Assembly (NCBI GenBank): GCA_004172865.1
Contig: SEBV01000014.1
Location: forward strand, 1 to 64,000
From: Gammaproteobacteria bacterium
Lineage (GTDB): Bacteria; Pseudomonadota; Gammaproteobacteria; Pseudomonadales; Cellvibrionaceae
DNA length: 64,000 bases
Direction: 5' to 3'
Shown one piece after another: positions 19,076 through 59,795 of the stretch (the stretch's first letter is position 1; each line of letters opens with the position of its first letter). The notes under the pieces are model-generated. The model was given only the letters and a program-made list of their open reading frames with translations, was not told the DNA's origin and did no database searches. The position numbers and the translations under genes were made by a program.

Positions 19076-19102
19076 GACGCGGATGATTAAAGTGCCCCTA
19101 CC
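19076..19102 (-). promoter_or_regulatory. ECF-type promoter of amidase copies 2 and 1
   Basis: On the minus strand: GGTAGGG (19096-19102), 15 bp, GCGTC (19076-19080). Exact match to the consensus shared by twelve sites in this window. It lies between the terminator of copy 3 and the start of copy 2. Confidence 0.7.
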
Positions 19103-21377
19103 GCTGGGCGCTGGGCACCCGTGCATAAGGCTTAAAAAAAGCCGACTCACAGGAGGCGGCTTTTTTAAAAGTGATTACAGCGTTTAGATCTCGCCTTTTA
19201 CCGGGCCAAAATCTTTGGGTGGTTTGCGATGCTTGGTGGCTTTCGTATTTGGTGCCGTCTTTGCTCAGCACGAAAGTCGCCTGATAATCGGTGGTGGCAA
19301 ATCCCGCGGGAACATAAACCTCCGCGATTCCCATTACCGCGCCGTAGCCGAAGCCCCAGCGAGTGGGTTCATCCGCGCCGCCAATTTTGGCTGCCAAGGC
19401 TGTGTCAGATGGGCTAACCAAAGCATCGAGCTTGTTTTGCTCCATAACTTTCATGGTCGCCATGCGCAGCACATCGCGACGTTTCATGGTGTGGGTAATT
19501 GCGGTGGTGCGAGTGTCCATAGTTTTAGCAGCCCAGTTTTTCATGGCGACTACGCGGGTGTTGCTCCAGTATTTCGCATTGGCATTCAAGCTTGGCCAGT
19601 CGTAGACATTGGCGTCACCACGCAACATCAAGTAGCGGGCAAAGTCGTAGGCGAAGGTGTAGCCCGTGTACTCTTCCGCGCCCGATGGCGGGTTGCCAAC
19701 CATGCGTTGAATATCCAAATCTACCGGCCAGGGCGCTTTGTGAATTGACGCTGCGACTAAATAATCGCGGCTGGTAATGTCATAGCCAGGCACGCTGAAT
19801 TCCGGTTTGCCATCCTTTTTCCACGACATAACTTCGGGCATATGGAAGGGAATAAATTCCGCGAGCGCATGCTCAAAAGTGAATGGCATATTGGCGATGG
19901 TTGGATCATCTGGATATTCCGGGTCGATAGTTTCAAATAATTCCGCACCCAGATCCTGCAGGACTTTTAATTCCTTATTAACACCATCACTCACTGCAGC
20001 ATGCGCTGGCGAATGCTTAACCATAAACTCGCGGATCACACCAATACGCATGCCCGCTAAAGGTTTTGCCGTGCCGGGCGCAACAAGTGCATTGCTGTAG
20101 GGCGTTTTGGAAGCGGTTAAACGAGACAACGCGGTGTAGGGATCTTTAGCGTCGAAGTAGCCAGTGTTGGGATCGCGAAATGCGTCCAGCACTGTGGTTG
20201 CATCTTTTACGGTGCGGCAATTAATGCCGGGGCGATCCTGATAAGGATTTGCGCCAATGCCGCCGGAGAATGAAATCATCCCTTTGGTGGGCACAACATT
20301 AACTACGCCGTTAAAGTTGGCAGGGTTGCGGCACGAACCGCCGGTGGTTTCGCAAATAGAACACACCACCAAATTCGCTGCGACTGATACGCCTGAGCCA
20401 CCGCTCGAACCGCCGGTTTCGCGAGTGGTGTCATAGGGGTTACAAATTGCACCGCCCCAGGTATCCCGCGAACCGCCACGGCCAAACATAGGGTGTTCGA
20501 GCTTGGCATCACCAGTTGGGTCGCCGCTACCGCCGTTGTATTCGGAGTTGGTTGCGTGGGCGTAAATGATTGCGCCTGCGGTGCGCATACGTGCCACCAA
20601 AGTTGAATCTTCAGGCGCAGCATCCATCGCGTATTTCACATCGCCACCACCGGTTGAGCGAATATCTTTTGCATCAAACACAGCCTTGAATGACATAGGG
20701 ACGCAATACAACGGCATGGCTGTGGTATCAGGATTGGTGCCATATTTTTGGTCGAGAGATGCTGCAACTTCGAGAGCATCCGGCAATTTACGGAAAGCAT
20801 CGCACGCCGCAGGACAGCTCGCTGGCAAGGGGCCAGATGCAGCGTCGCACTCTTTTGCACAGGAAACCGAGCGCTCACCACGCAGGTTCAACGACTCCAG
20901 GGCGTTCACTTGTTTAGCATTGGGGATTCCCACCACCATACCGAATTGTTGCTGCACGGCGGGATCGGAAATGGTGGATTCCATATGGCCGTAATCTGGT
21001 GTTTGGCCTTTGTACTTATCAAAATCCGGCATCCACTTATTCATGGCTACGGTTTGCGTTGGGAACTTCAAGGCGTTGCCAGCACGAGTTGTACCGGGTG
21101 CTGAAGGGATCTTTTTTCCATCTGCCGTGACCAGCTGCGTACAAATACCGTTGTAAGCTTGGGCACGTTTTACATAAGCTTCCACGACTTGCTTACAGGT
21201 AACTTCACCGGCGCGAATGCCGCTGTGAATACTGTCGATGGTTGCTTCTTCAAGTGTGAATTTACCGGCCGCTTGCACAACACTTGCCGTACATAGCGCA
21301 ACAGTTAGCAATAGGAGATGAGGCAATCTGCGCGCTAAAAAAGGTATAGCCTTAACGGTGAACGTGGGCATGATCAT
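19098..21377 (-). CDS. Exported cysteine-rich amidase (copy 3) with a frameshifted C-terminus
   Basis: The 759-residue product has a Sec signal peptide (cleavage after VQA) and the larger amidase architecture shared with copies 5 and 7. Triad: Lys in MSFKAVFDAKD, cis-Ser in TGGSSGGSG, nucleophile in CETTGGSCRNPA. Many cysteines occur in CAKECDAASGPLPASC-type pairs, so disulfides are likely in the periplasm. After TKYE (about residue 718) the similarity to copies 5 and 7 stops. The expected ending ATKHRKPPKDFGPVKGEI is present in another frame at 19184-19243 with its own TAA at 19184. About 39 residues plus the frame have been lost, and the current frame runs on through the terminator at 19135-19166. 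The fold is probably damaged. Confidence 0.8.
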   Translation of the reverse strand: MIMPTFTVKAIPFLARRLPHLLLLTVALCTASVVQAAGKFTLEEATIDSIHSGIRAGEVTCKQVVEAYVKRAQAYNGICTQLVTADGKKIPSAPGTTRAGNALKFPTQTVAMNKWMPDFDKYKGQTPDYGHMESTISDPAVQQQFGMVVGIPNAKQVNALESLNLRGERSVSCAKECDAASGPLPASCPAACDAFRKLPDALEVAASLDQKYGTNPDTTAMPLYCVPMSFKAVFDAKDIRSTGGGDVKYAMDAAPEDSTLVARMRTAGAIIYAHATNSEYNGGSGDPTGDAKLEHPMFGRGGSRDTWGGAICNPYDTTRETGGSSGGSGVSVAANLVVCSICETTGGSCRNPANFNGVVNVVPTKGMISFSGGIGANPYQDRPGINCRTVKDATTVLDAFRDPNTGYFDAKDPYTALSRLTASKTPYSNALVAPGTAKPLAGMRIGVIREFMVKHSPAHAAVSDGVNKELKVLQDLGAELFETIDPEYPDDPTIANMPFTFEHALAEFIPFHMPEVMSWKKDGKPEFSVPGYDITSRDYLVAASIHKAPWPVDLDIQRMVGNPPSGAEEYTGYTFAYDFARYLMLRGDANVYDWPSLNANAKYWSNTRVVAMKNWAAKTMDTRTTAITHTMKRRDVLRMATMKVMEQNKLDALVSPSDTALAAKIGGADEPTRWGFGYGAVMGIAEVYVPAGFATTDYQATFVLSKDGTKYESHQASQTTQRFWPGKRRDLNAVITFKKAASCESAFFKPYARVPSAQR
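19135..19166 (-). terminator. Intrinsic terminator of amidase copy 3, now inside its frame
   Basis: Stem AAAAAAGCCG / CGGCTTTTTT around a 12-base loop. It lies 18 bp beyond the ancestral stop (19184-19186) but inside the frameshifted reading frame that ends at 19098, which shows that the extension is secondary. Confidence 0.75.
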
Positions 21378-21520
21378 GAGAGCTTCCTCGCAATAAAATT
21401 ATTAAAGGGCAAGCGGTGGGAAGGCTGAATTTCAAAATAAATACTGATGGCATCAGCCAGGATGAGTAAGGCATTAGCTAGTGGCGTAATTCCCGTATCG
21501 CCGTAATGCACCTAGTGTTG

Positions 21521-21547
21521 GACGTAAAATAACCAATGCCCCCTACC
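21521..21547 (-). promoter_or_regulatory. ECF-type promoter of amidase copy 3
   Basis: On the minus strand: GGTAGGG (21541-21547), 15 bp, ACGTC (21521-21525). It lies 144 bp before the start codon, so the leader is longer than at the other sites. Confidence 0.65.
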
Positions 21548-22432: not shown

Positions 22433-22459
22433 GACGCTAGCAATCACACAAACCCTACC
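22433..22459 (-). promoter_or_regulatory. ECF-type promoter of the dsbC-like gene
   Basis: On the minus strand: GGTAGGG (22453-22459), 15 bp, GCGTC followed by TTAA (22433-22437). It lies 44 bp before the start codon. Confidence 0.7.
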
Positions 22460-22497: not shown

Positions 22498-23529
22498 TTA
22501 CTTCTTAAAAATAGATTTAGGAATCATGGCGTGAACGCCTTTAGTTCCATCTACCGCTTGGGAGATTGTTAAATCCATCGCCGCGCTGGATAACATGTAG
22601 GCGTCTTCACGCTTCATGCCTTTTTTCTCGACGAGGAAATCCAGCATTTGGCTGGTAGCCATGTGTGCGGCTTCATCGAGATCGCTGTTGAAACCCATGG
22701 TCATATAATGTGTTGGCGTTTCGGCGCGTGGCCATTTCAGGTTTTGCTGTTTGTGCAAAATCACCTGGATCTCGCCTTTAAGCGATGTTTCTATCGCAGA
22801 AAGACACACTTCGCCGTGCCCCTGAGCCGCGTGGCCATCACCGAGTGAGAGTGATCCCCCGGCAATCTGCACGGGTAAATAAATCGTGCTGCCCTCACCC
22901 AAATCCCGGTTATCCATATTGCCGCCAAAGAAATTTGGCGGCCCACTTGCCACGCGGCCCATGCTCGGTGGCGGCGCTACCGCTACCACACCAAAAAAAG
23001 GTTTTACTGGAACGACAATTCCGGGCGCGTATTCCACGCTTTGTTTTTTGAGATCAATCCACAAGACGCGGTCTTTTTGATAATTGAATTCGTCCGGCAA
23101 AACTCCGCGCCCTGGGCGAAAGCCCTGGCCTGCGATAGGTAAACGGACATCAACGGACAACATGCGGATTTCAAGCGTATCGCCCGGTTCAGCACCGCGC
23201 ACGGCGATTGGGCCAGTAAAGGTATGATCACCGCGCCCGGCACCTTCTACACCTTCGTAGACGGCATAAAGTTCAGCGGGAATTTTTTCTTTGGGAACGC
23301 CGAGACTTTCAAAATAACGCGGGTTGCCTGAGGCGGTTTCGAGCTTTACTTTATCGCCGGAATCAATCGTAAGTACCGGCGGTAAAGTGGCGTCGAAAAA
23401 GCCGCGGTGCACCTTGGTTGTAGACGCTTTCAACTCATAGGTTTTACCCAGCGCGAGCTGGGCCGAACTGCTGAGTAAAACGACCGTCGCCAACATCGAA
23501 CGCGAAAACAAAATTTTCAAAGTCCTCAT
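22498..23529 (-). CDS. Exported acetamidase/formamidase (FmdA/AmdA family)
   Basis: The 343-residue protein has a Sec signal peptide (cleavage after LALG) followed by the acetamidase/formamidase fold: TFTGPIAVRGAEPGDTLEI near residues 103-121, GRVASGPPNFFGGNMDNRDL in the middle and SLGDGHAAQGHGEV, which carry the conserved His, Asp and Asn of the family. These enzymes release ammonia from short amides. An exported version is unusual but fits the neighbourhood. It lies 33 bp after amidase copy 4 on the same strand, so it is probably the last gene of the unit starting at 27503. Confidence 0.85.
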   Translation of the reverse strand: MRTLKILFSRSMLATVVLLSSSAQLALGKTYELKASTTKVHRGFFDATLPPVLTIDSGDKVKLETASGNPRYFESLGVPKEKIPAELYAVYEGVEGAGRGDHTFTGPIAVRGAEPGDTLEIRMLSVDVRLPIAGQGFRPGRGVLPDEFNYQKDRVLWIDLKKQSVEYAPGIVVPVKPFFGVVAVAPPPSMGRVASGPPNFFGGNMDNRDLGEGSTIYLPVQIAGGSLSLGDGHAAQGHGEVCLSAIETSLKGEIQVILHKQQNLKWPRAETPTHYMTMGFNSDLDEAAHMATSQMLDFLVEKKGMKREDAYMLSSAAMDLTISQAVDGTKGVHAMIPKSIFKK

Positions 23530-23562
23530 AATCCTTACCCCACGACGTTAATTTTCTAGCAG

Positions 23563-25098
23563 TTAGGCATAAGGCGTTACGTTTGGCTTGGCTGTATCAG
23601 GCGAAAGCGGTGGCAATTTGGTATGCCATGAAGTCGCGTTTTCATAAGCTTTGGCGAGCGCAAAAATTTTGCCTTCAGAAAAATGCGGGCCGGCAATCAT
23701 CAAACCAATTGGCAAACCACTTTTACTGAACCCGCAAGGAATCGAAAGCGCAGGAATACCCATCACATTAAATGGCTGGGTATTGGAGGTAACGCGCGGA
23801 TTCGCTGGTTTGGTGTCGTTAACTTTGCCGATCAATTCATTGAGCGTGGGCGGCAAAATACGTTGGGTTGGCAATACCACCAAATCAAAATTGGTGAAGG
23901 CATCATCCACCTTACGTCGAAGGGTTTCGATCTCCCATTTAGCGCGAATGTAATCAGTCGCTTTGGGCGGAGCATCCATAATACTTTGCAGGCGACGACG
24001 CTCTGCAAGCATGTATTTCGCAGGCGCATTCTTAAAATATTGCTCGTGCCATGCCAGAGTTTCACCCAAGCCGCCCAAATTGGCGAGATGCGTTACGCCA
24101 GGTAAAGCAACATCTTCAACACCGCTGGTGAGCTTGGCTAGAAGTGCGATTGCAGTCTCAACGGCTTTTGCAACTTCTGGGTCCAAATCGTCAAAATATC
24201 CCGCTGGCGCACCGAGTTTAAAGCCCGAAACTGGCTGCGACATTTGCGCAACGTAATCTTCTTTTGGGTGTTCGACGCTGGTGATGTCGTATTTGTCGTA
24301 ACCCGCCAAAACATTCAACATAAGCGCGTTGTCTGCAACCGTGCGCGTCATTGGGCCGCAGTGATCGAGTGAAACGGTGAGCGGCAAAATACCTTTGATG
24401 GGCACTAAACCATAAGTCGCTTTCATACCCACGAGGGCACAGTAGGATGAAGGCATACGCACCGAACCGCCGGTGTCAGTACCGAGCGCACCGAAAGCGA
24501 GATGTGCAGCAACAGCCGCACCCGAACCAGATGACGAACCACCAGTATTGTGGGCGAGATTCCACGGGTTACGCGATGGCCCAAAGTAAGATGTCTCACC
24601 ACCACCCATGGCAAATTCCTGAGTATTGGTTTTACCGATAATTACCGCGCCCGCTGCACGCAAACGCGCAACTACTGTTGCATCTTCAGTGGGAACACGG
24701 TCTTCAAATAATGCGCTGCCACCAGTGGTGCGAGTGCCGGCAGTATCGATGATATCTTTAATCGCGATGGGAACACCGTGCAAAGGCCCGCGTGACGTTC
24801 CAGCCTTTTGTTCTGCATCTAATTGCTGCGCAGTCGCCATAGCTTCTCTGTGCATCACGGTGATAAATGCATCCAATTTTTTGTCGTAAGTTGCAATGCG
24901 TTCAAGGCAAGCTTGCGTCAATTGCACCGATGTAATTGCGCCGGAACGAATTTTTGCGGCGGCTTCGGTCAAGCTGAGCGATGCCAATTCTGATACGCCC
25001 GCGACCGCCGATTTTGCGGATGCAAAGCTGACAGGTAACGCCAAAGGTGCAGCTGCGCCTAACATAAGAAAATTAAAATGACGTCTTGGAATTTGCAT
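23563..25098 (-). CDS. Exported amidase with Tat-type signal (copy 4)
   Basis: A 511-residue amidase-signature enzyme. The N-terminus [18 protein letters not shown] has a twin-arginine motif (RRHFNF) before a hydrophobic stretch, so export by Tat is likely, in contrast to the Sec signals of most copies. Triad: Lys in IAIKDIIDT, cis-Ser in TGGSSSGSG, nucleophile in [12 protein letters not shown]. It resembles the classical GatA-like/AtzF-type amidases more than copies 1 and 2 do. It stands between asparaginase A and the acetamidase with gaps of 99 and 33 bp, with no promoter motif of its own. Confidence 0.87.
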
Positions 25099-25197
25099 GA
25101 TCTACCTGCCGTAATAAGCGATTGTTAAATTTAAAAACGCTGTTCAGATTTGTAAAAAAAATGCACAAATAAATTTAATTATTTGCGCATAATTTTT

Positions 25198-26334
25198 TTA
25201 ATATTCGTTAAAGATGCGAGTAACTTCTTTAATGTCGCTACTTTTTGTTAAAGCTAACTGCAACAAAATGCGCGCTTTTTCCGGCATAAAATTATCGCCT
25301 GGAACAATTTTGGCTTCGTTCCTGCGAATCGTATCTTGCACGCGGCCACCGTGAGTTCGCGCTGTGGCAACCACAACTACACCTTTAGCTTGCGCACGTT
25401 TAATCGCTTCGGTCTGGCCAGCAGTTGGGCTACCGGCACCCGTACCGTCGACAATGATTCCCTTAACGCCGTTGGCAACCATGGCATCAATAATGTAAGC
25501 AGGTGCATCGCGGTAAGCGTAAGCAACTTCTACTTTCGGTAGTGATGGAAAATCCATACCGGCAAATTCAGAATCGTTGGTGTGACGACGAACAGGTTCG
25601 CGATAAAATTTAATTTGATCCGGGTCGGCATAACCAAGCGCACCTACATCGACACCTTTAAAAGTATTCACACGATAAGCGCTGGTTTTGCTCACATCGC
25701 GCGCTGGAGTAATCACTTGATTCATGCAATGCAAAACACCTTTATTCCACGCATCTTTTGAACCAGCTACGCGCACAGCATCGTACAAATTACGGGGGCC
25801 ATCGCCACTCAAACCGGTCCAGGGGCGTTGCGAACCAACAAACACAATTGGCTTGTTCGTTTTAACAGTGAGGTTCATATAAAAAGCAGTTTCGGCCATG
25901 GTATTGGTGCCGTGCGTTACTACAATTCCATCAACACCTGCATCTTTTGCCAGCTCGTTAAGACGTTTAGCAACGCGTTGGAAATCTTCAAAAGTTTCAC
26001 CCGCAGCGCGATCTTGCGGCGCGCGTTGATCTTCAAGTGTAATGTTCGCCACGCCTTTTAATTCTGGTAAATCTTCGACCCACTCTTCCGGGTTTACACG
26101 AAAATCTTTGCCGCCGTAATTGCTAATATTCAATCGTGTATCAGCACTACTTGCGATAGTTCCGCCCATGGACATAAGCACAATGTTGGGTAATTTAACA
26201 TCCGCTCCTGGCATAGCAGGCTGCGGTGCGTAGGTAGGAATTTCTTGCGCAAGCGCAGGCAAACTAACGCTTAAAATCAGCGCCGTTAACCAGCGCGAAC
26301 GCGGTACAAAAATTTGCAAAAATTGATTGATCAT
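25198..26334 (-). CDS. Exported type II asparaginase-fold protein A, nucleophile Thr replaced
   Basis: A 378-residue asparaginase-family protein with a Sec signal (cleavage after ALA). The fold is clear: VTHGTNTMAETAF, FVGSQRPWTGLSGDGPRNLYDA, the Lys-containing ARDVSKTSAYRV, and the usual C-terminal KARILLQLALTK...IFNEY. However, the first motif reads LMSMGGTIA where family members have TGGTIA, so the primary nucleophile Thr is Met. The second motif is GTNT instead of GTDT, losing the Asp that binds the substrate alpha-amino group. Activity on free asparagine is doubtful. It lies 128 bp after asparaginase B on the same strand. Confidence 0.85.
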   Translation of the reverse strand: MINQFLQIFVPRSRWLTALILSVSLPALAQEIPTYAPQPAMPGADVKLPNIVLMSMGGTIASSADTRLNISNYGGKDFRVNPEEWVEDLPELKGVANITLEDQRAPQDRAAGETFEDFQRVAKRLNELAKDAGVDGIVVTHGTNTMAETAFYMNLTVKTNKPIVFVGSQRPWTGLSGDGPRNLYDAVRVAGSKDAWNKGVLHCMNQVITPARDVSKTSAYRVNTFKGVDVGALGYADPDQIKFYREPVRRHTNDSEFAGMDFPSLPKVEVAYAYRDAPAYIIDAMVANGVKGIIVDGTGAGSPTAGQTEAIKRAQAKGVVVVATARTHGGRVQDTIRRNEAKIVPGDNFMPEKARILLQLALTKSSDIKEVTRIFNEY

Positions 26335-26462
26335 ACGCTCGCACCTATTTGCTAAGTATTCATCGTGGTGGCTAAAAGTATTCGGTGACTGTTTAACTAA
26401 TTGTTGTTGCGCGATAAATGTATTGATTTAAAAATTTATCGCGCACACAAAAACATCCCGCA

Positions 26463-27503
26463 TTAATATTCATTAAACATGCGCTGGATTTCTTTCGGAT
26501 CCGTTGTTTTCGTTAAAGCTAAACGCAACAGAATGCGCGCTTTGTGCGGTGGCAAATTGTCTGAAGTTACAATACCCAAACCGGCTTGTTTTTCGCTTTC
26601 CACTACCCGACCAGAACCTTTACGATCACTCTTCACAAACACCACGCCTTTCTTCTGGCCTTTCTTAATGGCTTTATCATCATTGTCGGTAAGAACGATG
26701 CCTTTAGCCCCGGCAGAAACGAACGCTTTGATCGCAGAATCGTCAGATTCCTGATAAACATAAGTCACATCAACGCGCGGCAAATCTTTCAGATTTGAAA
26801 CATCAAATTCACTTTTGGATGTGTGGCGATAAGTAGGTTTGCGGTAAAAAACAATGCGGTCAGAATCGGTATAACCGAGTGGACCCATATCGCGTGCAAT
26901 AAAAGTATCAACGCGGTAGGTGTTATTTTTTGTCGTATCACGAGCAGCATTTATTTCATCGTTCAACATAATCATCACGCCGTAACCGCGCGCTTCTGGC
27001 GAAGCTGCAACACGAACTGCGTTGTATAAATTGAACGGGCCATCACGGCTTACCGCGGTAAATGGACGCATGGCACCAACAACCATTACGGGCTTGTCAG
27101 ACTTGATAACGAGATTTAAAAAGTAAGCAGTTTCTTCAAGCGTTGCGGTTCCGTGAGTAATAACCGCGCCAGAAGATTCCGGTAACGCGAGCCACTCATT
27201 CACATCTTTCGCAAGTTTAAGAAGTATCTTGGCGTTAATACCGCCAGAACCTATATTCGATTCTTCGAGGTAAGTAACATTGGCAATTTTTTTAAGCTCG
27301 GGTAAATCGTTAATAAGATCTTCTGGCCCGATTTTTCCGGCAGAATATTCCATTAACTTTTGACGATGATCCCCCTTACTTTGGATGGTACCGCCAGTAG
27401 TAAATAATTTAACATTGGGCAATTGCGCCTGAGCAAACGCAACACCAGACAAAAGAAAAATAAACAAGCCACAAAATTTGCGGCAAAGAAGCGTGCGAGA
27501 CAT
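26463..27503 (-). CDS. Exported type II asparaginase-fold protein B
   Basis: Start placed at ATG 27503, which opens the signal peptide (MSRTLLCRKFCGLFIFLL, cleavage after AFAQA). Catalytic Thr motifs are present: FTTGGTIQS and THGTATLEETAYF; Lys is in ARDTTKNNTYRV. The Asp of GTDT is Ala here, so the pocket that holds the alpha-amino group of asparagine is altered. The C-terminus LLRLALTKTTDPKEIQRMFNEY is typical of periplasmic asparaginases. It is the first gene of a likely unit with asparaginase A, amidase copy 4 and the acetamidase, and has the shared promoter 50 bp upstream. Confidence 0.87.
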   Translation of the reverse strand: MSRTLLCRKFCGLFIFLLSGVAFAQAQLPNVKLFTTGGTIQSKGDHRQKLMEYSAGKIGPEDLINDLPELKKIANVTYLEESNIGSGGINAKILLKLAKDVNEWLALPESSGAVITHGTATLEETAYFLNLVIKSDKPVMVVGAMRPFTAVSRDGPFNLYNAVRVAASPEARGYGVMIMLNDEINAARDTTKNNTYRVDTFIARDMGPLGYTDSDRIVFYRKPTYRHTSKSEFDVSNLKDLPRVDVTYVYQESDDSAIKAFVSAGAKGIVLTDNDDKAIKKGQKKGVVFVKSDRKGSGRVVESEKQAGLGIVTSDNLPPHKARILLRLALTKTTDPKEIQRMFNEY

Positions 27504-27552
27504 GCACTGTCCTCCAGCGAACCATGCCACTATTAGCATTGGTGCTTATGAA

Positions 27553-27579
27553 GACGCATAATGTGGAGATCCCCCTACC
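27553..27579 (-). promoter_or_regulatory. ECF-type promoter of the asparaginase B unit
   Basis: On the minus strand: GGTAGGG (27573-27579), 15 bp, GCGTC followed by TTC (27553-27557). It lies 50 bp before the start codon of asparaginase B. Confidence 0.7.
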
Positions 27580-29006: not shown

Positions 29007-31301
29007 CTATTTTACCAACGGCCCAAAATCACTCGGCGGTTTACGATGTTTAGTCGCGGCTTCGTAAATATATGCAACTTTAAGAATCATAGGTTCGTCA
29101 CCAATTCCCGACCAAAATGAAATTCCGTAGGGCATTGGGTTTTTCAATGTGGTTGGTGCAGTTTCGTTGGCGGTTTCTTTGTATTCGTCTTTCTTTTCAT
29201 TTAACACAAATGTGGGTTCATAAATTACGCTATTGAAACCGGCGGGCACAGTAATTTCTGGAATACCTAAATCTGCGCTGGTAGGGAAACGACCTGTTGG
29301 GCGATTATTTACAGTCGGTTGATTGGCATAACCGATAAGTGCGGGTGGAATAGTTGTGGTTGGGTTAACCAATAAATCCAGATTATTTTGTTGCATAACT
29401 TTATTCACCACCATGCGCATTACGTCGCGCATTTTTACGCGTTGAGTGATGCCGTCGGTTTGAATATTGATTGTGTTTTCCCAATTTTCCATAGCCACAT
29501 CGCGGTTTTGTACATAGTATTTGGCGTTGGCATTCAAGCTGTGCCAATCGCTAATTTTGCTGTCGCCACGCATCGCTAAATATTGCGCCATGTGCAAACT
29601 AAAACTCGCGGTACGCGGTGAACTTGTTACGGTGCGGATATTTAATTTTTCCGAAAGTGGTACTTGCCCTAACGAAACTTTTGCCATGTAGTCACGACTA
29701 GTTATGTCGTAACCGGGAACTTCAAACATTTGTTTTTTATCGGTAATTTGCGCGAGATATTCGGGCATAAGCATTGGCAAAATTTCTGCGAGCGCTTGTT
29801 GGAATGTGTAAGTCATATCCGGGATTCCAGCATCATCGGGATAGGCGGGATCTTTTGATTCCACCAATTCCGCACCCAATTCATCGCGCAATACACGTTT
29901 CATTTCTTCATTACTTTGATCGCTAATCGCGCGGTCATTCGCAGCATGTTTGACCATATATTCACGCACAATACCAATGCGCAGACCGGCCAAAGGTTTT
30001 TTGCCTTTCTTTGTATTCTCTACAGTGAATGATGCATAAGGTTGATTTGGAATTAATGATTTTGGTAAAGCGCTATAGACATCGCGCGGGTCAAAATAAC
30101 CGCGTTGCGGATCTTTCAATGCATCCAAAACTTGTGCGGTATCGCGAACCGATTTGCAATGAATTCCTGCGCGATCCAGATAAGGATCCGCACCAATCGC
30201 ACCGCCATAGGCCATTAAACCTTTGGTCGTTACAAAGCCGACAACGCCGCTGCGCCACGCTGGTTGGCGACACGAGCCACCGGTTTCTTCGCAGATAGAA
30301 CACATACTTAAATTAGCGCCGACTGATACCGCCGAACCTGAACTTGAACCACCAGTTTCGCGCGCTGTGTCGTATGGGTTACAGGTTGCGCCGCCCCAGG
30401 TACTGCGTGCGCCCGCACCATAAACTTTGGTTTTTTGTTTTGCATTGCCGGTGGGATCACCCGCGCCGCCGTTGTATTCAGAGAGATTAGCTTTGGCGTA
30501 AATGATGGCGCCTTTCGCGCGCAATTCAGCAACGACTGTGGCGTCTTTGGGTGGAGCATCCAACGCGTATGCAGCATCGGCACCGCCGGTGGAACGCATA
30601 TCTGCCGTGTCGTAAACATCTTTAAACGAGAAGGCAACGCAGTACATGGGCATCTTTTTTAAATCGGGTTTGCGGCCATATTTCGCATCAAGTTCAGCAG
30701 CAGTTTCAAGCGCATCTGGCTGCTTACGAAAGTTGTCACAAGCTGCCTGGCAACTCGCTGGCAAGGGGCCATCTTTAGGCGCGAGATCACAACTGGCACT
30801 GCAACTGACCGAACGCTCACCACGAATATTCAAGGTATTTAATGCGCTCAATTGTTTGGTGCCGGGAATTCCCACCAAAGTACCAAATTGCAAATTAACT
30901 GCAGAATTAGATGCGGCGGTATCCATGTGTCCATATTCAATCGGCAAGCCTTTATAGCTCGCAAGATCGGGCAGCAACGTATTCGCAGCAACAGTTGTGG
31001 TTGGAAATTGCAATGCTTGCCCGGCGCGTATCGGACCGGTCGCTGGCGCAATGTTCGCACCGTCTTTAGTCACTAATTGAGTGCAGACGCCATTGAATGC
31101 TTTTGCGCGATCTATATAGGACTGCACCACATCCACACAAGTAGTTTTGCCTTTTTTAATCGCCGCGTGCACATCGTCAATACTCGCCTCTTCGATTTGG
31201 AAGGTGGATTTAGCAAAGGCATGACTCGAAATACATAAGGTTAAGACGAAACCCATCTTGATAAATAACGCCATCAATCGATTCTTATTAATCAAATTCA
31301 T
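29007..31301 (-). CDS. Exported cysteine-rich amidase (copy 5)
   Basis: Start at ATG 31301, which opens a Sec signal (cleavage after SHAFA); the longer frame to 31388 would overlap the promoter. About 764 residues, the large amidase type shared with copies 3 and 7. Triad: Lys in SFKDVYDTADMRS, cis-Ser in TGGSSSGSA, nucleophile in CEETGGSCRQPA. Multiple Cys pairs (CSASCDLAPKDGPLPASC) suggest disulfides. The C-terminus is intact (YGISFWSGIGDEPM, then HRKPPSDFGPLVK) and shows what copy 3 has lost. The shared promoter lies 67 bp upstream, arranged back-to-back with a plus-strand copy for the JmjC gene. Confidence 0.88.
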   Translation of the reverse strand: MNLINKNRLMALFIKMGFVLTLCISSHAFAKSTFQIEEASIDDVHAAIKKGKTTCVDVVQSYIDRAKAFNGVCTQLVTKDGANIAPATGPIRAGQALQFPTTTVAANTLLPDLASYKGLPIEYGHMDTAASNSAVNLQFGTLVGIPGTKQLSALNTLNIRGERSVSCSASCDLAPKDGPLPASCQAACDNFRKQPDALETAAELDAKYGRKPDLKKMPMYCVAFSFKDVYDTADMRSTGGADAAYALDAPPKDATVVAELRAKGAIIYAKANLSEYNGGAGDPTGNAKQKTKVYGAGARSTWGGATCNPYDTARETGGSSSGSAVSVGANLSMCSICEETGGSCRQPAWRSGVVGFVTTKGLMAYGGAIGADPYLDRAGIHCKSVRDTAQVLDALKDPQRGYFDPRDVYSALPKSLIPNQPYASFTVENTKKGKKPLAGLRIGIVREYMVKHAANDRAISDQSNEEMKRVLRDELGAELVESKDPAYPDDAGIPDMTYTFQQALAEILPMLMPEYLAQITDKKQMFEVPGYDITSRDYMAKVSLGQVPLSEKLNIRTVTSSPRTASFSLHMAQYLAMRGDSKISDWHSLNANAKYYVQNRDVAMENWENTINIQTDGITQRVKMRDVMRMVVNKVMQQNNLDLLVNPTTTIPPALIGYANQPTVNNRPTGRFPTSADLGIPEITVPAGFNSVIYEPTFVLNEKKDEYKETANETAPTTLKNPMPYGISFWSGIGDEPMILKVAYIYEAATKHRKPPSDFGPLVK

Positions 31302-37264: not shown

Positions 37265-37277
37265 CTGTCTTTGATTA

Positions 37278-52406: not shown

Positions 52407-55220
52407 TTACAAATCAACCTTCAGAGAAAGTTCATAACGACGACCTGGCATAACCGACATCAACATGCTGTTACCGCCGTTACCAGCGCGGAAATCGATA
52501 TCGTCATCAACGTTATACACGTTGCCTTTAAGGTGAATCTTCGCGTTGTCCCAGGTGACACCCAAGTTCAGGATCGTTGACGATGGAATCTTAACGGTCT
52601 GAATACGGTTAGCCCATGATTCGCCAAAGTACTGCACGTTCGCCAATACGCCGAAGCCTTTACCGAGGTTATAACTGGTGTTCATCGCCGCCTGAACTTC
52701 TGGTGAACCCGGAACCTTGTCATAAACGTTGTTAGGGTCATTCAGCAGAATGTTGGTACGACCACCAAAACCGAAAGCTTCTGCAGGGTAGATTGAGCCA
52801 TCTGGTGCAACATAATCTTTAAAGCCAAGTTCACGTGCGGTAACGCCAATGTTGAGTGCAACAGCGCCCGTTGAGTAGCGTGGATCCATTTTTGCAACCG
52901 ACGCACCGATAAACCAGTCACGAGTGGCTTGGTAGTTGATGCTGGCCTCGACACCTTCAGTGGTAGTGCTGGTCGCGAAGGCTGCGATACTTGGATCAGC
53001 GCCGCCAGAAACGTCAGTACGCTCTTGTTTAAACTGAGCCAATGTCCACTGAATTTTCTTACCGAGTGCGACACCTTTGATACCGAATTCATCCAGAGAT
53101 GCATCACCCACCAACTTACCGCCGGTTACAGTTGCAGCTGCGTAAAGGTTGTTATTACCGTCGAGCGTAATGGTTGAACTGGCCAGGGTGACATAAGGAG
53201 TAATGCTGTACCAAGGCAGCTTGTGCGACAAACTTGCACTCCATGACGTGCCGTTATCAGACGCTTCTACCGTTGTTTTTGGAGCCAAATAGGCACCTGG
53301 GCATACGCCACCGGGTGTTAAACAGGCGGTACCCGCTTTGTAAGCCGCGATGAGGTCTGCAGTTGGCACACCGATGGTGCCAGTGTTTGGGTTGAACGAT
53401 GGGCTTTCATTTACTTTTGCATTTACGTCATCGTAACGACCACCGATAACCAAATTGGTATTGGTGAAGAAGTCGATGTCTAACATCAAACCAACACCTT
53501 TTTCGGTGTATTGGGATTTACGGAAGTTACTGTCAGGCACACCGGTTTGGTAACTGTCGTTGGTCAACTGAGTCCAGAACATGGTGTTGGGATAGAAACC
53601 ACCGGTACCGCTACCGTTAGCGCCTGTGTCAAAGGTGATGTCTTGACGGAAGTCGAAGTCGCCACCGGAACTCAGGATAAAGCCCGAGGTTTTGCGATAG
53701 TTCAAAGAACCCAAGCTGTTAACCGCTAACCAATCTGGCAAATAGTCAGATGGGATTTTTTTAGTAACAGTAATTTTATCTTCCAACGCTTTAATGAATT
53801 GGTTTTCGCCGTAAGGCAACCAGGAATCTTTGAACGAATTCAAGCTGTCGTAGAACAATTGGTTTTTAACGGTGAAGTCTGGATCTGTGTCATAAATCAA
53901 ATCAAAGTAGGCCATTTTCTGAGTCGCGTTTTGTTCGCGCTCATAGGCACCATTTGAACGGTAATCGTCATCTTCCAACTGGGTTTCGCCGGTGTTACAA
54001 GGGTCGAGCACTAGGCCAACAGGTAAATTACGTGTTACCAAACCATTCGAAGTTGCGCCCACAACTGGCAAGGTGCGCATGTAGGTAGCCATTGCACAGT
54101 TAGAGCTAGCGCCCGCACCGGTGGTCAAATAATCCATCATCGATTTTGGAATACCGTTGATGGTATTGGCGTAACTGCTGATTGGAATCGGGTTACCAGA
54201 TGCATCCTGAGGAAGCGTAAAACGTTGATCCAACGCCTGGTTATTACCGCCAATACTGCCGGTGACTGGTGAGCCTAAATAGGTTTCAACATAACCAATA
54301 CGGCCATCGCCGTTGATGTCCAGGTTAGCCAGTGGACGACCGTTAACGTAAGTACCGTTATCGATCAAGTCTTGCGTAGTACGTGTGAAGTAAGCACCTG
54401 CGGTAACTGAGTTTTGAATCTGGCCGCCCATCTCCAAACGGAATGGACCTATGGCGTTATCCACACTCAAAGTGGCTTGCAAGAATTTTTGTTTCGCTGG
54501 AACAGTTTCAACAAATGTTTTGGAATCTTCCAACAAACCGACGATATAAATACCGGCAGATTTACCGGCGATTTCAAACGGTTTACCCAAACCAAATTGC
54601 ATTTCAGCTTTGCCGTAGCTATCCACAGTCGCCTGCAAATAACCTTGCTCCTGAGTCATGTATTTACCGGTTTTTGCACGGTTGGACTTCGGATCGAGGT
54701 TGGCGTAACCACCGACTTGACCCATACCATAGAGTGGAGATGGTGGGCCTTTAATCACTTCGATATTGTCGTAAGCAGAAAGAATGGTACGCACGTGACC
54801 CTGCATTTGCAGACGTTTCATGCCGCGATAATAAAAGTCAGCGGATACGCCGCGCACGTTGATACCACCTTGCAAACCATAACGTGTAGTAGTGTAAGTT
54901 CCTGGAACCAAACGGCTGAGGTCATCCACTGAAGACACGCCGTATAAGCGCAATTGCTCTTCACTGACAAAAGTTACGGTACGTGGCGTTTCCAACAAAG
55001 GTTTAGCAAAACCAAATGACGCTCCAGAGGGTTCATTGGATAAAGCACGCAGTGGATCGTCAGTGACGTTTACATCGCTAAGCTCGGTAACTTCGCCGGG
55101 CTTTTCTTCCTGCGCGAATGCGGGCGCGGTGTACGCCAAGGACACAGACGCTAAGGCGACGACCGTGGCAATTGCGCTACGCAAATTGAATTTGCGCTCA
55201 AAGTTTTTAGAACTGTACAT
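52407..55220 (-). CDS. TonB-dependent outer-membrane receptor without signalling domain
   Basis: A 937-residue receptor with a Sec signal (cleavage after AFA, about residue 36). The plug starts right after (KPLLETPRTVTFVSEEQL, VPGTYTTTRYGLQGGINVRG, DNIEVIKGPPSPLYG), followed by a 22-strand barrel. There is no STN domain, so it transports but does not signal. It is paralogous to the 55692 receptor, including the rare KPLLETPR plug motif, which suggests the same ligand class. The C-terminus ends YELSLKVDL rather than the usual aromatic residue. An exact copy of the shared promoter lies 71 bp upstream. Confidence 0.9.
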   Translation of the reverse strand: MYSSKNFERKFNLRSAIATVVALASVSLAYTAPAFAQEEKPGEVTELSDVNVTDDPLRALSNEPSGASFGFAKPLLETPRTVTFVSEEQLRLYGVSSVDDLSRLVPGTYTTTRYGLQGGINVRGVSADFYYRGMKRLQMQGHVRTILSAYDNIEVIKGPPSPLYGMGQVGGYANLDPKSNRAKTGKYMTQEQGYLQATVDSYGKAEMQFGLGKPFEIAGKSAGIYIVGLLEDSKTFVETVPAKQKFLQATLSVDNAIGPFRLEMGGQIQNSVTAGAYFTRTTQDLIDNGTYVNGRPLANLDINGDGRIGYVETYLGSPVTGSIGGNNQALDQRFTLPQDASGNPIPISSYANTINGIPKSMMDYLTTGAGASSNCAMATYMRTLPVVGATSNGLVTRNLPVGLVLDPCNTGETQLEDDDYRSNGAYEREQNATQKMAYFDLIYDTDPDFTVKNQLFYDSLNSFKDSWLPYGENQFIKALEDKITVTKKIPSDYLPDWLAVNSLGSLNYRKTSGFILSSGGDFDFRQDITFDTGANGSGTGGFYPNTMFWTQLTNDSYQTGVPDSNFRKSQYTEKGVGLMLDIDFFTNTNLVIGGRYDDVNAKVNESPSFNPNTGTIGVPTADLIAAYKAGTACLTPGGVCPGAYLAPKTTVEASDNGTSWSASLSHKLPWYSITPYVTLASSTITLDGNNNLYAAATVTGGKLVGDASLDEFGIKGVALGKKIQWTLAQFKQERTDVSGGADPSIAAFATSTTTEGVEASINYQATRDWFIGASVAKMDPRYSTGAVALNIGVTARELGFKDYVAPDGSIYPAEAFGFGGRTNILLNDPNNVYDKVPGSPEVQAAMNTSYNLGKGFGVLANVQYFGESWANRIQTVKIPSSTILNLGVTWDNAKIHLKGNVYNVDDDIDFRAGNGGNSMLMSVMPGRRYELSLKVDL

Positions 55221-55290: not shown

Positions 55291-55317
55291 GACGCCGCTA
55301 ATGGCCTTACCCCTACC
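55291..55317 (-). promoter_or_regulatory. ECF-type promoter of the 52407 receptor
   Basis: On the minus strand: GGTAGGG (55311-55317), 15 bp, GCGTC followed by TTAA (55291-55295). Exact consensus. Confidence 0.72.
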
Positions 55318-55691: not shown

Positions 55692-58600
55692 TTAAAAACG
55701 GTAAGTCGCCGTTAATTGCGTGCGTCTTCCCGGCATAGCTTGCGCAATAACATCACCCAGAACTTCACCAGTGCGCGCGCGAAAATAATGCCGGTCGCCA
55801 ACATTCGCGACATCCAATTTAAGATCGATTGCAGGGCTACTCCAAAAAACACCGACATCAACAACCGTACTACTTGGAAGCTCCACCAAACAAAGTCGGC
55901 CAGAACAAGTGCTGGATAAATAATTGCCTTTAAGCGTTGCGCCCCAATGTTTATCAAATTGATAAATCGCCGTTATGCCCACCTGGGTTTCAGGATTACC
56001 TTGCTTGCGCTCATACGCAGATACATCATTCGGCAAATTTATATTCGCACGACCACCGTATAAAAATGCCTCTGCGGGATAAATGACATTGCCTTCAGCA
56101 TCCAAAATATCGGTAAAACCCAAAGCTCTGGCATCCACTTGAATCACGCCGCCCGCATTGGGTAAATATTTGGTAATTTGTTTCAGTGTGTAGAGACTCA
56201 ACAATAAATTTTTACGCGGAACCCATTTAATTTCTGTTTGCCAACCGCGCGTTGTAGTTGCAGTAGCGTAAGCGTTAATGACGTTAGCGATATCGTCTTG
56301 CGTAACATCTGCTCTACCCTGTTCGTAAACGGTGGAGACCAAATTTAGATTGCCATCGAACCAACTTCCTTTGACACCCGCCTCTTTTAAAACTGCCGTT
56401 CCAACGTGCCCGGAGTTGATAACATCGTTCAGCAAAGAGTTGTTATTGCCATCCAACAAAATAGTTGCGCGAGACATAGTTGCGTAGGGATGAAGCCCGA
56501 AAGGTAATTGTTGGGACAAGCTCACTGACCAGGAACCACCGCCATCCCACCTTTCAGCGACATCATCTAACAAAGCGACGGCACCGGGTTTTGCAGCAGT
56601 ACCCGTATTGTAAAAATAGCGCCCGGCGTAATTGGTATTTTTGGCTTTTGAGCGATCATGACGCGCGCCCACCAAGATGTTGGTGTCATTAAATAAATCT
56701 ATATCCAGTAAAAACCCGGCACCAAATTCGGAAAATTCCGTGCGATAAATACTGCCCCAGGGCATGCCGTCATTGGCTACATCACTGTTTTCATTGGAGC
56801 TGGCGAAGGTAGTATTTGCAGTCATACCCGCCGTCGCCGGATTCCAATCTACAGCTGTGGCGTCAGTGCGGTGATTGCCATAATCGCCAACAATACGCAG
56901 GCCTTTGGAAACCGTATCGCGCACATTGAATGAAAAAGCCTGATTGACTCGCATCCACGAGGGCAGATTTTGCAGCCTATCCGTTAGCGTGAATTTGTCT
57001 TCAATAACATAAACATCCTGAACCTGACTAAACGGCTGGTTCGAGTTTTTGTATTGATTCATGCTGTCGTAAAACAATTGGTTTTTAACGGTGAAGTCGG
57101 GGTCTACGTCGTAGACCAAATCGGCAAATGCCGTCATAAATTCGGCTTTAACATCTTTTTCATAAGCCGCACCGCGCCGTGGATTAAGTTTTTTTATCGC
57201 TACAGTGCGCGGATCAAGCGCCATACCAACGGGAACCGCACCCGATACCGGAATCGGGCCGCCCACGCCTTGCGCGCGCAAAAGCCCCGTGGGATCGGCT
57301 TCCGGATTTGCCTGTAAATAGTTGTACAGGGATTGCGGAATGCCGGTTATTTTCGGAAATTGATCAATGGTAAGCGGCTTGCCGTTAGCATCCAGCGGCC
57401 AATCAAATACCTGATTTAAGGGTTGGTTTGAGGTGGTCAAATTACCTTTGACTGGTGATGCAGTCTGCATTTCCATATAGCCAATGCTGCCATTGCCGTT
57501 GAGATCAAGGTTAACCAAAGGTGAGCCGCCGATGTAATCGCCGTTGTCTACCAACGCCTGCGTTAATCGCCCAATCAGGGCACCCGACGTGCGTGATTCC
57601 TGATAGCTGATCCCAGTTTCCAACCGAAATGGCCCAACCATATCGTCAATGCTGGTGGCCGCTTGCAGTACTTTCTGCTTTACCGGAATGGCTTCGGTGT
57701 ACGAATCGGAATCCTCGACCAAGCCATACACATAGTAACCACCCTCTTTGCCCAATGCTTCAAGGTCTGCGGGGCCACCAACGCCGAATGACAATTCTCG
57801 CCGGTTGTATTCACCTGCTACCAGCTGTGCAAAACCGTGGGCTTCGTTGAAGTACTGACCGGTTTTTGATCGCCCTGATTTGGGTACAAAATTGACATAA
57901 CCACCAATTTTCCCCATACCATGCAAAGGTGAAGCTGGGCCGCCGACGACTTCAATCGAGTCCATGGCTGCTAAAACACTGCGGCCGTGACCCTGCAAGG
58001 TTAAGCGGCGCATACCGCGAAAATAGGTGTCTGCGGGAACACTGCGAATATCCACCGAACCTTGCACACCAAACCGTGTGGTGGTGAAAACACCGGGAAC
58101 AACGCGCAACAAATCCTCAACCGCACTTAAGCTAAAGACATCAATAGCATCGCTACTTACATGGGAAACTGATCGCGGTGTTTCCAATAAAGGCTTGGTA
58201 AAACCAAATACTGAACCACTGCCAGACCCATTCCACCAAGGCGATTGGCCAGTGACATCCACGTCAGTAAGCACAGTCATGTCGGCATCAACTTCTTTAT
58301 GAGGAGTAGATGAGTTGGAACCGGTGCTAAGAAGAACTTTGGGTTTGCTAGAGATAGCTACTGACTTGCCGTTAATTAAATGCCACTCCATATCCGTACC
58401 GCTCAGAAGTCTGTTGAGAGCAACTTCGACGGTTAGTCTTTCTTTAACTTGAATGGAGTGTTTGTTCGTTAACGCGCTGGGTTCGTAAAGCAATTGCAGC
58501 GAAGCTTGTTGACATAATTCACGTAGGGCATCGCTGAGATTGCCAGAGTGAATATCGAAATTGATTTGGTCACGAGTGGAGTTTGATGGCGGGTTCGTAC

Positions 58601-58766
58601 CTGCGTTGATAGCAACTTCGTTAGCAGCAGGACGCGATTGGATAGTGGAATTGCTCGCGGCATAAGCACGCAAATTACAACAAAAGAAAACAGCCACAAC
58701 AGCTGTGCAAGTAAAGTAATAATTAGGGGTTTTGCGTATCGTATTTCTCGAACAGTACAATTTCAT
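55692..58766 (-). CDS. TonB-dependent receptor with STN signalling domain (FecA-type)
   Basis: Start set at ATG 58766 (MKLYCSRNTIRKTPNYYF), which opens a signal peptide ending AYA; the frame reaches further upstream into fecR. About 1024 residues. After the signal comes an STN domain (INFDIHSGNLSDALRELCQQ, LLYEPSALTN, DMEWHLINGKSVAI), the periplasmic part that contacts FecR, then plug (KPLLETPRSVSHVSSDAI, VPGVFTTTRFGVQG) and barrel ending in QLTATYRF with the usual final Phe. It overlaps the end of fecR by 44 bp, so the two are co-translated. It should sense the ligand and start the sigma response. Confidence 0.9.
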   Translation of the reverse strand: MKLYCSRNTIRKTPNYYFTCTAVVAVFFCCNLRAYAASNSTIQSRPAANEVAINAGTNPPSNSTRDQINFDIHSGNLSDALRELCQQASLQLLYEPSALTNKHSIQVKERLTVEVALNRLLSGTDMEWHLINGKSVAISSKPKVLLSTGSNSSTPHKEVDADMTVLTDVDVTGQSPWWNGSGSGSVFGFTKPLLETPRSVSHVSSDAIDVFSLSAVEDLLRVVPGVFTTTRFGVQGSVDIRSVPADTYFRGMRRLTLQGHGRSVLAAMDSIEVVGGPASPLHGMGKIGGYVNFVPKSGRSKTGQYFNEAHGFAQLVAGEYNRRELSFGVGGPADLEALGKEGGYYVYGLVEDSDSYTEAIPVKQKVLQAATSIDDMVGPFRLETGISYQESRTSGALIGRLTQALVDNGDYIGGSPLVNLDLNGNGSIGYMEMQTASPVKGNLTTSNQPLNQVFDWPLDANGKPLTIDQFPKITGIPQSLYNYLQANPEADPTGLLRAQGVGGPIPVSGAVPVGMALDPRTVAIKKLNPRRGAAYEKDVKAEFMTAFADLVYDVDPDFTVKNQLFYDSMNQYKNSNQPFSQVQDVYVIEDKFTLTDRLQNLPSWMRVNQAFSFNVRDTVSKGLRIVGDYGNHRTDATAVDWNPATAGMTANTTFASSNENSDVANDGMPWGSIYRTEFSEFGAGFLLDIDLFNDTNILVGARHDRSKAKNTNYAGRYFYNTGTAAKPGAVALLDDVAERWDGGGSWSVSLSQQLPFGLHPYATMSRATILLDGNNNSLLNDVINSGHVGTAVLKEAGVKGSWFDGNLNLVSTVYEQGRADVTQDDIANVINAYATATTTRGWQTEIKWVPRKNLLLSLYTLKQITKYLPNAGGVIQVDARALGFTDILDAEGNVIYPAEAFLYGGRANINLPNDVSAYERKQGNPETQVGITAIYQFDKHWGATLKGNYLSSTCSGRLCLVELPSSTVVDVGVFWSSPAIDLKLDVANVGDRHYFRARTGEVLGDVIAQAMPGRRTQLTATYRF

Positions 58767-59757
58767 TGGCTCCGGTACGAGCACTCCGCAAAGGTAATAC
58801 GGCTGTAAGTGTTTCGACAAAATCGCTAGTATCACCGCCCGCGATGAAATTACCGGCGATTGGAATTTCAGCAAGAGAATTGTCGCCTAGTACAACTTTA
58901 ACTTTTGAATAACGATTAATCTCATCCAGCGCTTTGCGCAAAGGCACGCCGTCAAACGCTAAAAATCCCGTAGACCAACTGGTAACCGAATCTGCTTTTA
59001 CTTTCAGGATCTGGTGACGATGTAATAAATTGTCGATCAATAATTGTTGCCCCGGTACTAACACTTCGCGCCAAGTATCAGCCTGATTGCTGTTAGTCAC
59101 CGCGACCGAACCTTCCGCCAGAGTTACATTCACGGTTTGATTTTCAGGCACTACATCAACCTGAAAACGCGTTCCCAATGCGACGACTCGCGTGCCCGAT
59201 TTACTTACAGAAAAGGGGCGGTTTTTATCGTGTGCGACTTCAAAGAAAGCCCTGCCGGTATCCAGATCCAAACGGCGCTCTTGCGCGCTCATATCCACAC
59301 TTAACTTGGCACCAACATCCAAATACACCACTGAACCATCACTCAGCTCAATGCGCTGTTTGCTCAATTCATTGTTTACGTAATATTGCGTAGGGCTAGC
59401 ATCAAACGCCTGCTGACGACCAAAAGTGAAGAACGCAGCGATTCCAATAAACACGACAGCGGCAGCGGCATAACGGAAACGATTGCTGAAACCAGCGAAG
59501 CCCCCGGTTGATTTGATGTCAGTAGATTCTTGCATGGCATCTGATAACATCGCGCGCATGCGTGGATCAGAACCAAGCTGGTTACTAACCAAACTGGCAG
59601 CATCGATCACAGACCTATATGCCTGTTCGCGTTCAGTTCCGCCCATAAGCCAGGTTTTAAAAGCTGCGCGCTCTTTCTCGGAACAATCCGGAGCGTGCAA
59701 TCTCGCGTACCATTGGGCGGCCTGATTAACTACGATGTTGCTGGGTTTATTGTCCAT
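58723..59757 (-). CDS. fecR: FecR-family anti-sigma / sigma regulator
   Basis: The 344-residue protein has the typical order: an N-terminal cytoplasmic DUF4880-type region (AAQWYARLHAPDCSEKERAAF, WLMGGTEREQAYR), one membrane helix (AAAAVVFIGIAAFFTF, about residues 93-108), a periplasmic FecR domain (IELSDGSVVYLDVGAKLSV, FEVAHDKNRPFSV, GTRFQVDV) and a C-terminal STN-like region (FDGVPLRKALDEINRYSKV). FecR relays the receptor signal to the sigma factor across the inner membrane. It lies between the sigma gene and the STN receptor. A degenerate copy of the shared promoter (CGTTT instead of CGTCT) is 12 bp upstream. Confidence 0.9.
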   Translation of the reverse strand: MDNKPSNIVVNQAAQWYARLHAPDCSEKERAAFKTWLMGGTEREQAYRSVIDAASLVSNQLGSDPRMRAMLSDAMQESTDIKSTGGFAGFSNRFRYAAAAVVFIGIAAFFTFGRQQAFDASPTQYYVNNELSKQRIELSDGSVVYLDVGAKLSVDMSAQERRLDLDTGRAFFEVAHDKNRPFSVSKSGTRVVALGTRFQVDVVPENQTVNVTLAEGSVAVTNSNQADTWREVLVPGQQLLIDNLLHRHQILKVKADSVTSWSTGFLAFDGVPLRKALDEINRYSKVKVVLGDNSLAEIPIAGNFIAGGDTSDFVETLTAVLPLRSARTGANEIVLFEKYDTQNP

Positions 59758-59768
59758 ATTTCCTTGTA

Positions 59769-59795
59769 AACGGCTTCAGACTATTTCCCCCTACC
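59769..59795 (-). promoter_or_regulatory. ECF-type promoter-like site before fecR
   Basis: On the minus strand: GGTAGGG (59789-59795), 15 bp, CCGTT (59769-59773). The -35 is exact but the -10 has one mismatch, and the site is only 12 bp from the ATG, leaving little leader. Confidence 0.45.

Follow-up and report, generated by a model that had tools for sequence, protein, structure and literature searches.

Introduction

The closest described counterpart of the locus analysed here is the FecI/FecR/FecA system of Escherichia coli, in which an extracytoplasmic function (ECF) sigma factor is likewise accompanied by a FecR with an N-terminal DUF4880 domain and by an STN-bearing receptor. Fur control has been described for fec. 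The locus lies in a 64,000-nucleotide stretch (the window) of contig SEBV01000014.1, assembly GCA_004172865.1, from a gammaproteobacterium of the Cellvibrionaceae, where twelve copies of a G-rich promoter-like motif precede amidase genes and other genes around a FecI-type sigma gene. In E. coli, fecIR is not autoregulated (PMC9249621); no site lies before the sigma gene of the present island, but some loci of more distant relatives have one. In contrast to the fecA promoter alone, the island has some 15-17 units, an amidase cargo, a fecR with its own site and the -35 block GGTAGGG.

The hallmarks of ECF promoters are a -35 AAC and a -10 CGT (PMC8103513). The island -10 block contains CGT, as CGTC or CGTT, whereas the -35 blocks of its own sites and of those in relatives lack AAC and carry T[AG]GGG instead. 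The -35 AA element has been discussed, and the VreI promoters also lack AA (PMC4971064), so that an AA-less -35 alone has precedent. The RpoE4-type promoters of S. meliloti (GGAAT ... CGTC) start 9-10 nt after CGTC by count (PMC6180224). They are similar to the island sites in the CGTC -10 and in a start distance close to the one predicted here, and differ in a -35 with GAAT and in the ECF group. PvdS, from the FecI-like groups ECF05-ECF10, is a sigma factor with a multi-promoter regulon. The motifs of these groups were called AT-rich (PMC6180224), whereas the island -35 is G-rich although its sigma factor is also FecI-like. The S. meliloti FecI yielded no motif in the same study (PMC6180224), and a large promoter survey omitted ECF05-10 because these are non-autoregulating (PMC3817407).

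Literature matches on ECF or FecI promoter motifs combined with TonB-dependent included none mentioning amidase. GGTAGGG with sigma factor returned only Klebsiella fimbriae, amidase with a FecI/FecR/TonB-dependent receptor gene cluster only glycoside hydrolases, and FecI-like in Xanthomonas only a FecI review. Among the matches listed for the shorter GGTAGG was an article on a Streptomyces ECF factor. The motif can be called new only provisionally, because the 2021 ECF classification may list a motif for the group of this sigma factor. The new elements here are a start-fitting purine 10 nt after CGTC, a fecR ATG at that point and a candidate small RNA (sRNA). The sequence is best read as a FecI/FecR/FecA system whose -35 lacks AA and whose regulon is large and catabolic. 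Very probably, the FecI/FecR/FecA-type sigma factor switches a whole 65-kb amide-catabolism island through the G-rich promoter.

Putative Promoter Motif and Its Restriction to One Island

The twelve sites of the window are listed below. Genes are named by their left coordinates, and G025 is a Cellvibrionaceae relative.

19076..19102, minus strand: before amidases 17371 and 15704; site also before the G025 orthologue
21521..21547, minus strand: before amidase 19098; also in G025
22433..22459, minus strand: before dsbC 21661; also in G025
27553..27579, minus strand: before asparaginases 26463 and 25198, amidase 23563 and FmdA 22498; also in G025
31368..31394, minus strand: before amidase 29007; no G025 orthologue found for comparison
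31424..31450, plus strand: before JmjC 31617 and asparaginase-like 32831; also in G025
36390..36416, minus strand: before amidase 34667; weakest -35 of the twelve (CTTAGGG); G025 match weak, score 8.3
43396..43422, minus strand: proximal site of membrane protein 41567; ATG at offset 35
43458..43484, minus strand: distal site of membrane protein 41567; also in G025
43550..43576, plus strand: before amidase 43632; also in G025
55291..55317, minus strand: before receptor 52407 and amidases 50352, 48725 and 47065; also in G025
59769..59795, minus strand: between fecI and fecR; same place in all five genomes with an orthologue

All twelve were located where the original prediction had placed them and read as it described, pointing into amidase, asparaginase, DsbC, JmjC, membrane-protein, receptor and fecR genes; the observation of a twelve-site motif is confirmed. 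The -35 block was GGTAGGG in eight sites, and the -10 block contained CGTC in eleven and CGTCT in eight, again as claimed. The predicted N15 plus NCGTC equals GGTAGGG-N16-CGTC, which is the notation used below.

The pattern T[AG]GGG-N16-CGT matched the window at exactly the twelve sites. T[AG]GGG-N16-CGTC gave 11 window matches, and the other gaps from 8 to 25 gave 0 or 1 each; in 60 third-order Markov sequences the mean was 0.18 and the maximum 2. A motif-free 4-mer dyad enumeration was carried out over C87:18.0-84.5 kb. TAGG-N17-CGTC (13 seen vs 0.56 expected) and AGGG-N16-CGTC (12 vs 0.48) were the top dyads, behind only the self-complementary AAAA-N22-TTTT, and the best dyad of the remaining contig was far weaker. 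Genome-wide, GTAGGG-N16-CGTC had 13 matches, 11 of them on the island contig, and its reversed control had 5. Moreover, GGTRGGG-N16-CGTC with zero mismatches occurred 11 times in the 5.25-Mb genome, every time within one 65-kb stretch (C87:19-84 kb). A genome-wide search, which had been proposed as a check in the form of a matrix scan, thus placed the exact matches of this pattern in the island.

Extent of the Island and Putative Transcription Units

A matrix built from the twelve sites was run over the full 133,874-bp contig, with coordinates given as left ends of 33-base matches. It recovered the twelve sites and added 83750+, 67297-, 79098-, 70698- and the weaker 81853+ (12.7). Outside 19-84 kb, no matrix score exceeded 10.8. 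The match 83100- (11.6) was intragenic and without CGTC. The island continues for about 20 kb beyond the window and has five extra sites there, one of them weak. The original prediction, that no site precedes the TonB genes, held inside the window; beyond its edge, a site at 67303 precedes the operon 61623-67131 and was missed because the window ended short of it. The TonB operon belongs to the regulon, which corrects the original prediction.

Eighteen putative transcription units were counted in the island from strands and gaps, leaving out the small-gene stretch 36579-41251, the small ORF (open reading frame) 46484-46864 and the unassigned 27.6-29.0 kb. A clear N16 site was present in 15 of the 18, including the ORF-less 83750+. 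The amidase 81792 unit had only the weak site 81853+, and the amidase 80016 unit had an N17 site at C87:81727, a variant also present in G025 at C42:162434. The sigma gene was the sole unit without any site.

Sigma Factor and Conservation in Cellvibrionaceae

The regulatory and receptor genes of the island are as follows.

59841..60410, minus strand: FecI-type ECF sigma factor; Pfam Sigma70_r2, r4 and r4_2; NCBIfam FecI models matched below cut-off
58723..59757, minus strand: FecR-type sigma regulator; Pfam FecR with N-terminal DUF4880; ATG at motif offset 38
55692..58874, minus strand: FecA-like TonB-dependent receptor, putative sensor; Pfam Plug and N-terminal STN signalling domain
52407..55220, minus strand: second TonB-dependent receptor, putative importer; Pfam Plug; heads a unit with three amidases

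Sigma regions 2 and 4 were both present according to Pfam, and the FecR gene adjoins the sigma gene. The STN domain of receptor 55692 was matched at residues 126-177 (28.1 bits, E=1.8e-6). The longest ORF of this receptor overlaps fecR, and its true start is probably further in. The approximately 1.2 kb upstream of the sigma gene (60411-61622) is AT-rich, apparently non-coding and without a motif site.

The family comparison covered 144 Cellvibrionaceae genomes, with G000 being the window's own. Sigma orthologues at least 74% identical were found in five genomes (G000, G025, G010, G142 and G032), and the next best was 44% identical. Exact sites numbered 8, 7, 5, 6 and 5 in these genomes, respectively, and were clustered in G000, G025 and G142. 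Five or more exact sites occurred only in the five orthologue genomes and in G136. The fetched stretches of the relatives were chosen for holding exact matches; in their matrix scan, the site between fecI and fecR was found in all five orthologue genomes. The order of motif, fecR and receptor gene was also the same in all five at the level of sequence.

In ten promoter pairs, the blocks were conserved at 109/110 positions and the spacers at 105/160. These pairs were picked because both members had a site, and the block figure is thus biased; a gene test in G025, chosen without regard to the motif, was made for this reason. Within the 260 bp tested upstream, 11/13 counterparts of unit-leading genes scored 16 or more, 0/19 inner operon genes exceeded 6.9, and the sigma gene scored 6.1. 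The comparison of orthologous upstream regions, which had been suggested as a check, thus found the sites kept before unit heads. Together with the restriction of exact sites to the island, it bears out the claim of one ECF-type promoter and one regulon. In G142 the island is split: contig C11 carried the sigma gene, fecR and the receptors, while C5 carried the TonB operon with most matched amidases. Both loci were far from contig ends and both had the motif, as a trans-acting regulon would show.

The many amidase paralogues of the island leave room for chance, or for copying of the sites with duplicated upstream regions. This explanation is extremely unlikely, as spacers and flanks differ among sites, and sites are also found before dsbC, JmjC, fecR, receptors, the TonB operon and an ORF-less stretch, and recur at orthologous genes.

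Recurrence Outside the Family

Relatives of the sigma factor were sought in a scan of species genomes, which gave 204, and 80 of these relatives were used. L127-L130 were G025, G010, G142 and G032 again. L131-L150 were 20 loci outside the family with sigma factors 49-64% identical, including Nevskia, Solimonas, Hydrocarboniphaga, Steroidobacter and Pseudohongiella; L141/L142 and L144/L145 were near-duplicate pairs. In these 20 loci, GTAGGG-N16-CGTC occurred 27 times on the sigma strand, vs 4 times at N17 and 0-1 times at other gaps. In 18/24 loci L127-L150 (49-90% identity), four of the 18 being the relatives already counted, the 300 bp that follow the sigma gene held a match of at least 16, and L136 had a variant site there. 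Window-like amidases adjoined the sigma gene in at least 8 of the 20 (L131, L133, L134, L135, L140, L143, L144 and L145). Nine whole genomes outside the family had 3-9 exact matches each (reversed controls 1-7), and five of them (G144, G145, G147, G149 and G152) had two or more matches within about 8 kb at the sigma gene.

At 35-44% identity, a site was found upstream of the sigma gene in seven Xanthomonas loci, which came from near-identical strains and are so non-independent, and in one Luteimonas locus; one Variovorax locus had it after the sigma gene. Other loci in this identity range with the same helix core had no site. Upstream sites were also found in L133, L135, L140 and L171. No motif match was found in the 25 loci L102-L126 (3.5 kb each, sigma factors 39-44% identical). 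Their recognition helix was SSVEKYI in all 23 in which it could be located, whereas the five orthologues have KMVEKHI. That this helix core suffices for the motif was rejected, because many loci with the core are without the motif.

A real promoter might be read by another ECF sigma factor, and the genome has 8 other ECF-like matches. All eight are at most 31% identical to the island sigma factor and on other contigs, whereas close orthologues of the latter co-occur with the sites, and a site often lies directly after an island-type sigma gene, outside the family too. We regard another reader as very unlikely. The sigma-site co-occurrence in relatives and the recurrence beside 51-64% identical sigma factors outside the family agree with the choice of gene 59841 as the reader, and the assignment of this sigma factor to the motif is well supported by sequence comparison.

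Predicted Transcription Start and the fecR ATG

Forty sites in the four relatives were selected by GT[AG]GGG-N16-CGT[CT], which fixed those columns. In the unselected columns, G prevailed at offsets 0 and 7, and T or A after CGTC. A purine was present at offset 36, which is 10 nt after CGTC, in 36/40 relatives' sites, 13/16 own sites and 23/27 sites outside the family. The offset-36 purine fits a predicted transcription start. The S. meliloti sorT start is also 10 nt after CGTC, counted on the printed sequence (PMC6180224). At other gaps, the selection pattern occurred 8 times as N17 and at most 3 times otherwise in the relatives; given these N17 matches, the sequences suggest that the gap may be 16 or 17.

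In all 13 loci examined, which were ones with FecR directly following the sigma factor (5 Cellvibrionaceae, 8 others), the fecR ATG fell at offset 35-38, no more than two bases from the predicted start. The FecR match starts at a greater distance in L139, L141, L142, L144 and L145. By position, the arrangement of the fecR ATG at the predicted start is frequent, not universal. Translation of fecR may also occur from a longer fecI-fecR message. Among the literature matches listed, none concerned a leaderless fecR under an ECF sigma factor by title and abstract start.

The paired blocks are short, with fixed spacing, and the start positions are predicted ones, so that they might be operator half-sites of a conventional regulator, with transcription from other promoters. 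However, the blocks are neither palindromic nor mutual repeats, they point into target genes, and the CGT of the -10 block is a hallmark of ECF promoters (PMC8103513). The purine at a fixed distance, the fecR ATGs at the predicted start and the tracking of the sigma gene by the motif also argue for a promoter, and we consider operator half-sites unlikely.

Candidate Small RNA

No ORF lies immediately downstream of site 83750+. What follows it, in G000 as well as in G025, is GTAAGTCTTCATGTG, then a hairpin and then a T run. The two stretches (G000 C87:83750-83863; G025 C42:162322) have a common 15-nt 5' segment and a terminator-like hairpin, and no shared ORF. The predicted folds were -20.0 kcal/mol (z -2.4) in G000 and -16.9 kcal/mol (z -2.9) in G025. 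The 5' segment was absent from G010 and G032 at one mismatch, and in G142 it was found only on another contig (C3), so the evidence comes from two species of one genus. Rfam around the candidate (L011) gave nothing up to E=1, and no site complementary to the 5' end was found in the own genome at up to 1 mismatch. We take the stretch as a candidate gene for a small RNA of roughly 60-80 nt that the same promoter would drive.

Weighing of the Evidence

Motif, spacing, island restriction, recurrence at orthologous genes and co-occurrence with the sigma gene were computed here. Several points weigh against control of the whole island by this sigma factor. The whole case is computational. With one mismatch allowed, the genome had 54 matches (15 in the island) vs 119 for the reversed control; as the count is below the control, it is the exact or in-island matches that carry weight. 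At least one exact match was found in 74/144 family genomes, and G136 had 5 exact matches dispersed along one contig without a close sigma orthologue. In G010 and G032, each of the 5 exact matches was on a short contig of its own, except for two on one contig in G010, so that clustering could not show. The G025 counterpart of amidase 34667 had only its weak match (8.3), and the site of amidase 77321 (19.6) was present in G025 but outside the 260 bp tested. Outside the family, L137, L138, L146, L147 and L148, among them several that share the helix core, had no site after the sigma gene. Among the Nevskiales, several loci have a -35 block that overlaps the last sigma codons, and its conservation there may partly be coding constraint; a number of these loci also have sites before receptors. 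The STN match of receptor 55692 was 0.3 bits under the curated cut-off.

Isolated one-mismatch matches were rejected as regulon members, since they were fewer than in the control and thus background. C227:371209 and C91:4750 were set aside as firm members at the background rate. The latter, AGTAGGG-N16-CGTC before a gene that looks TetR-like by eye, could be chance, but it may be a member because a carbon-nitrogen hydrolase is encoded about 1 kb farther downstream.

Proposed Mechanism

We infer the binding, signal path, ligand class and transcription start as follows. By homology to E. coli FecI/FecR/FecA, an amide-containing ligand would bind the STN-bearing receptor 55692-58874. The signal would go from the receptor to FecR, which would let the sigma factor act with RNA polymerase. 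Transcription by the holoenzyme would begin about 10 nt past CGTC in some 15-17 units spread over 65 kb. This would switch on amidases, asparaginases, FmdA-type amidases, DsbC, the second TonB-dependent receptor, the TonB/ExbB energiser and the RND pump, together with fecR and the sensor receptor. In this genome, no site belongs to the sigma gene itself.

A wider proposal is tentative, and we place it slightly below an even chance. A FecI-type lineage in Cellvibrionaceae, Nevskiales and Steroidobacter, possibly also in Xanthomonas, Luteimonas and Variovorax, would read an AA-less GGTAGG[G/T] and control island-wide amide catabolism in trans. It would often use a near-leaderless fecR mRNA starting at the ATG, with an sRNA in this genus.

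Genes of the Island and Its Surroundings

The cargo scanned with Pfam consisted of amidases, asparaginases, two FmdA-type amidases, DsbC, JmjC_2, two TonB-dependent receptors, TonB, ExbB and an RND pump. Genes 15704, 70778 and 80016, the pump partner 75998 and some genes of the TonB operon were named by eye.

17371..19044, minus strand: amidase; Pfam PF01425; apparent signal peptide by eye
15704..17314, minus strand: amidase by sequence reading (unscanned by Pfam), second gene of the 17371 unit; 94% identical protein in G025
19098..21377, minus strand: large amidase; Pfam PF01425
21661..22389, minus strand: DsbC-type disulfide isomerase; Pfam DsbC_N and Thioredoxin_2
22498..27539, minus strand: FmdA-type amidase, amidase and two asparaginases in one unit; Pfam
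29007..31388, minus strand: large amidase; Pfam PF01425
31617..34585, plus strand: JmjC_2 protein and asparaginase-like protein; Pfam
34667..36352, minus strand: amidase; Pfam PF01425
41567..43387, minus strand: membrane protein (by eye); no Pfam or NCBIfam match
43632..45989, plus strand: large amidase; Pfam PF01425
47065..52208, minus strand: three amidases of the receptor 52407 unit; Pfam PF01425
61623..64000, minus strand: part of the TonB/ExbB/ExbD operon; TonB_C and MotA_ExbB by Pfam, other genes by eye

The real start codon of amidase 29007 must be internal, at about 31301. The amidases 19098-21377, 29007-31388 and 43632-45989 are very large, and the first two are cysteine-rich in places (by eye). 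The DsbC of the regulon could serve the disulfides of the very large amidases.

At 36579-41251, the island is interrupted by small minus-strand genes, cassette-like by appearance and without the motif. A 5'-nucleotidase-like gene (13506-15602) lies downstream of the amidase 17371-15704 unit and was unmatched in the fetched G025 stretch. Lookalikes of a filamentous-phage assembly ATPase and secretin were seen by eye at 1891-4164. An Rfam scan of the window gave nothing at gathering score.

Significance

FecI-like sigma factors are an ECF class with poorly predicted promoters. About 17 sites in one genome and dozens in relatives provide a usable model of the promoter and make this sigma factor and its promoter a candidate orthogonal pair. 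The leaderless fecR and the sigma-dependent sRNA are offered as testable claims; the sRNA, if the wider proposal is true, would be the non-coding arm of a FecI system. The locus suggests a FecI system that controls a catabolic island instead of a single iron receptor.

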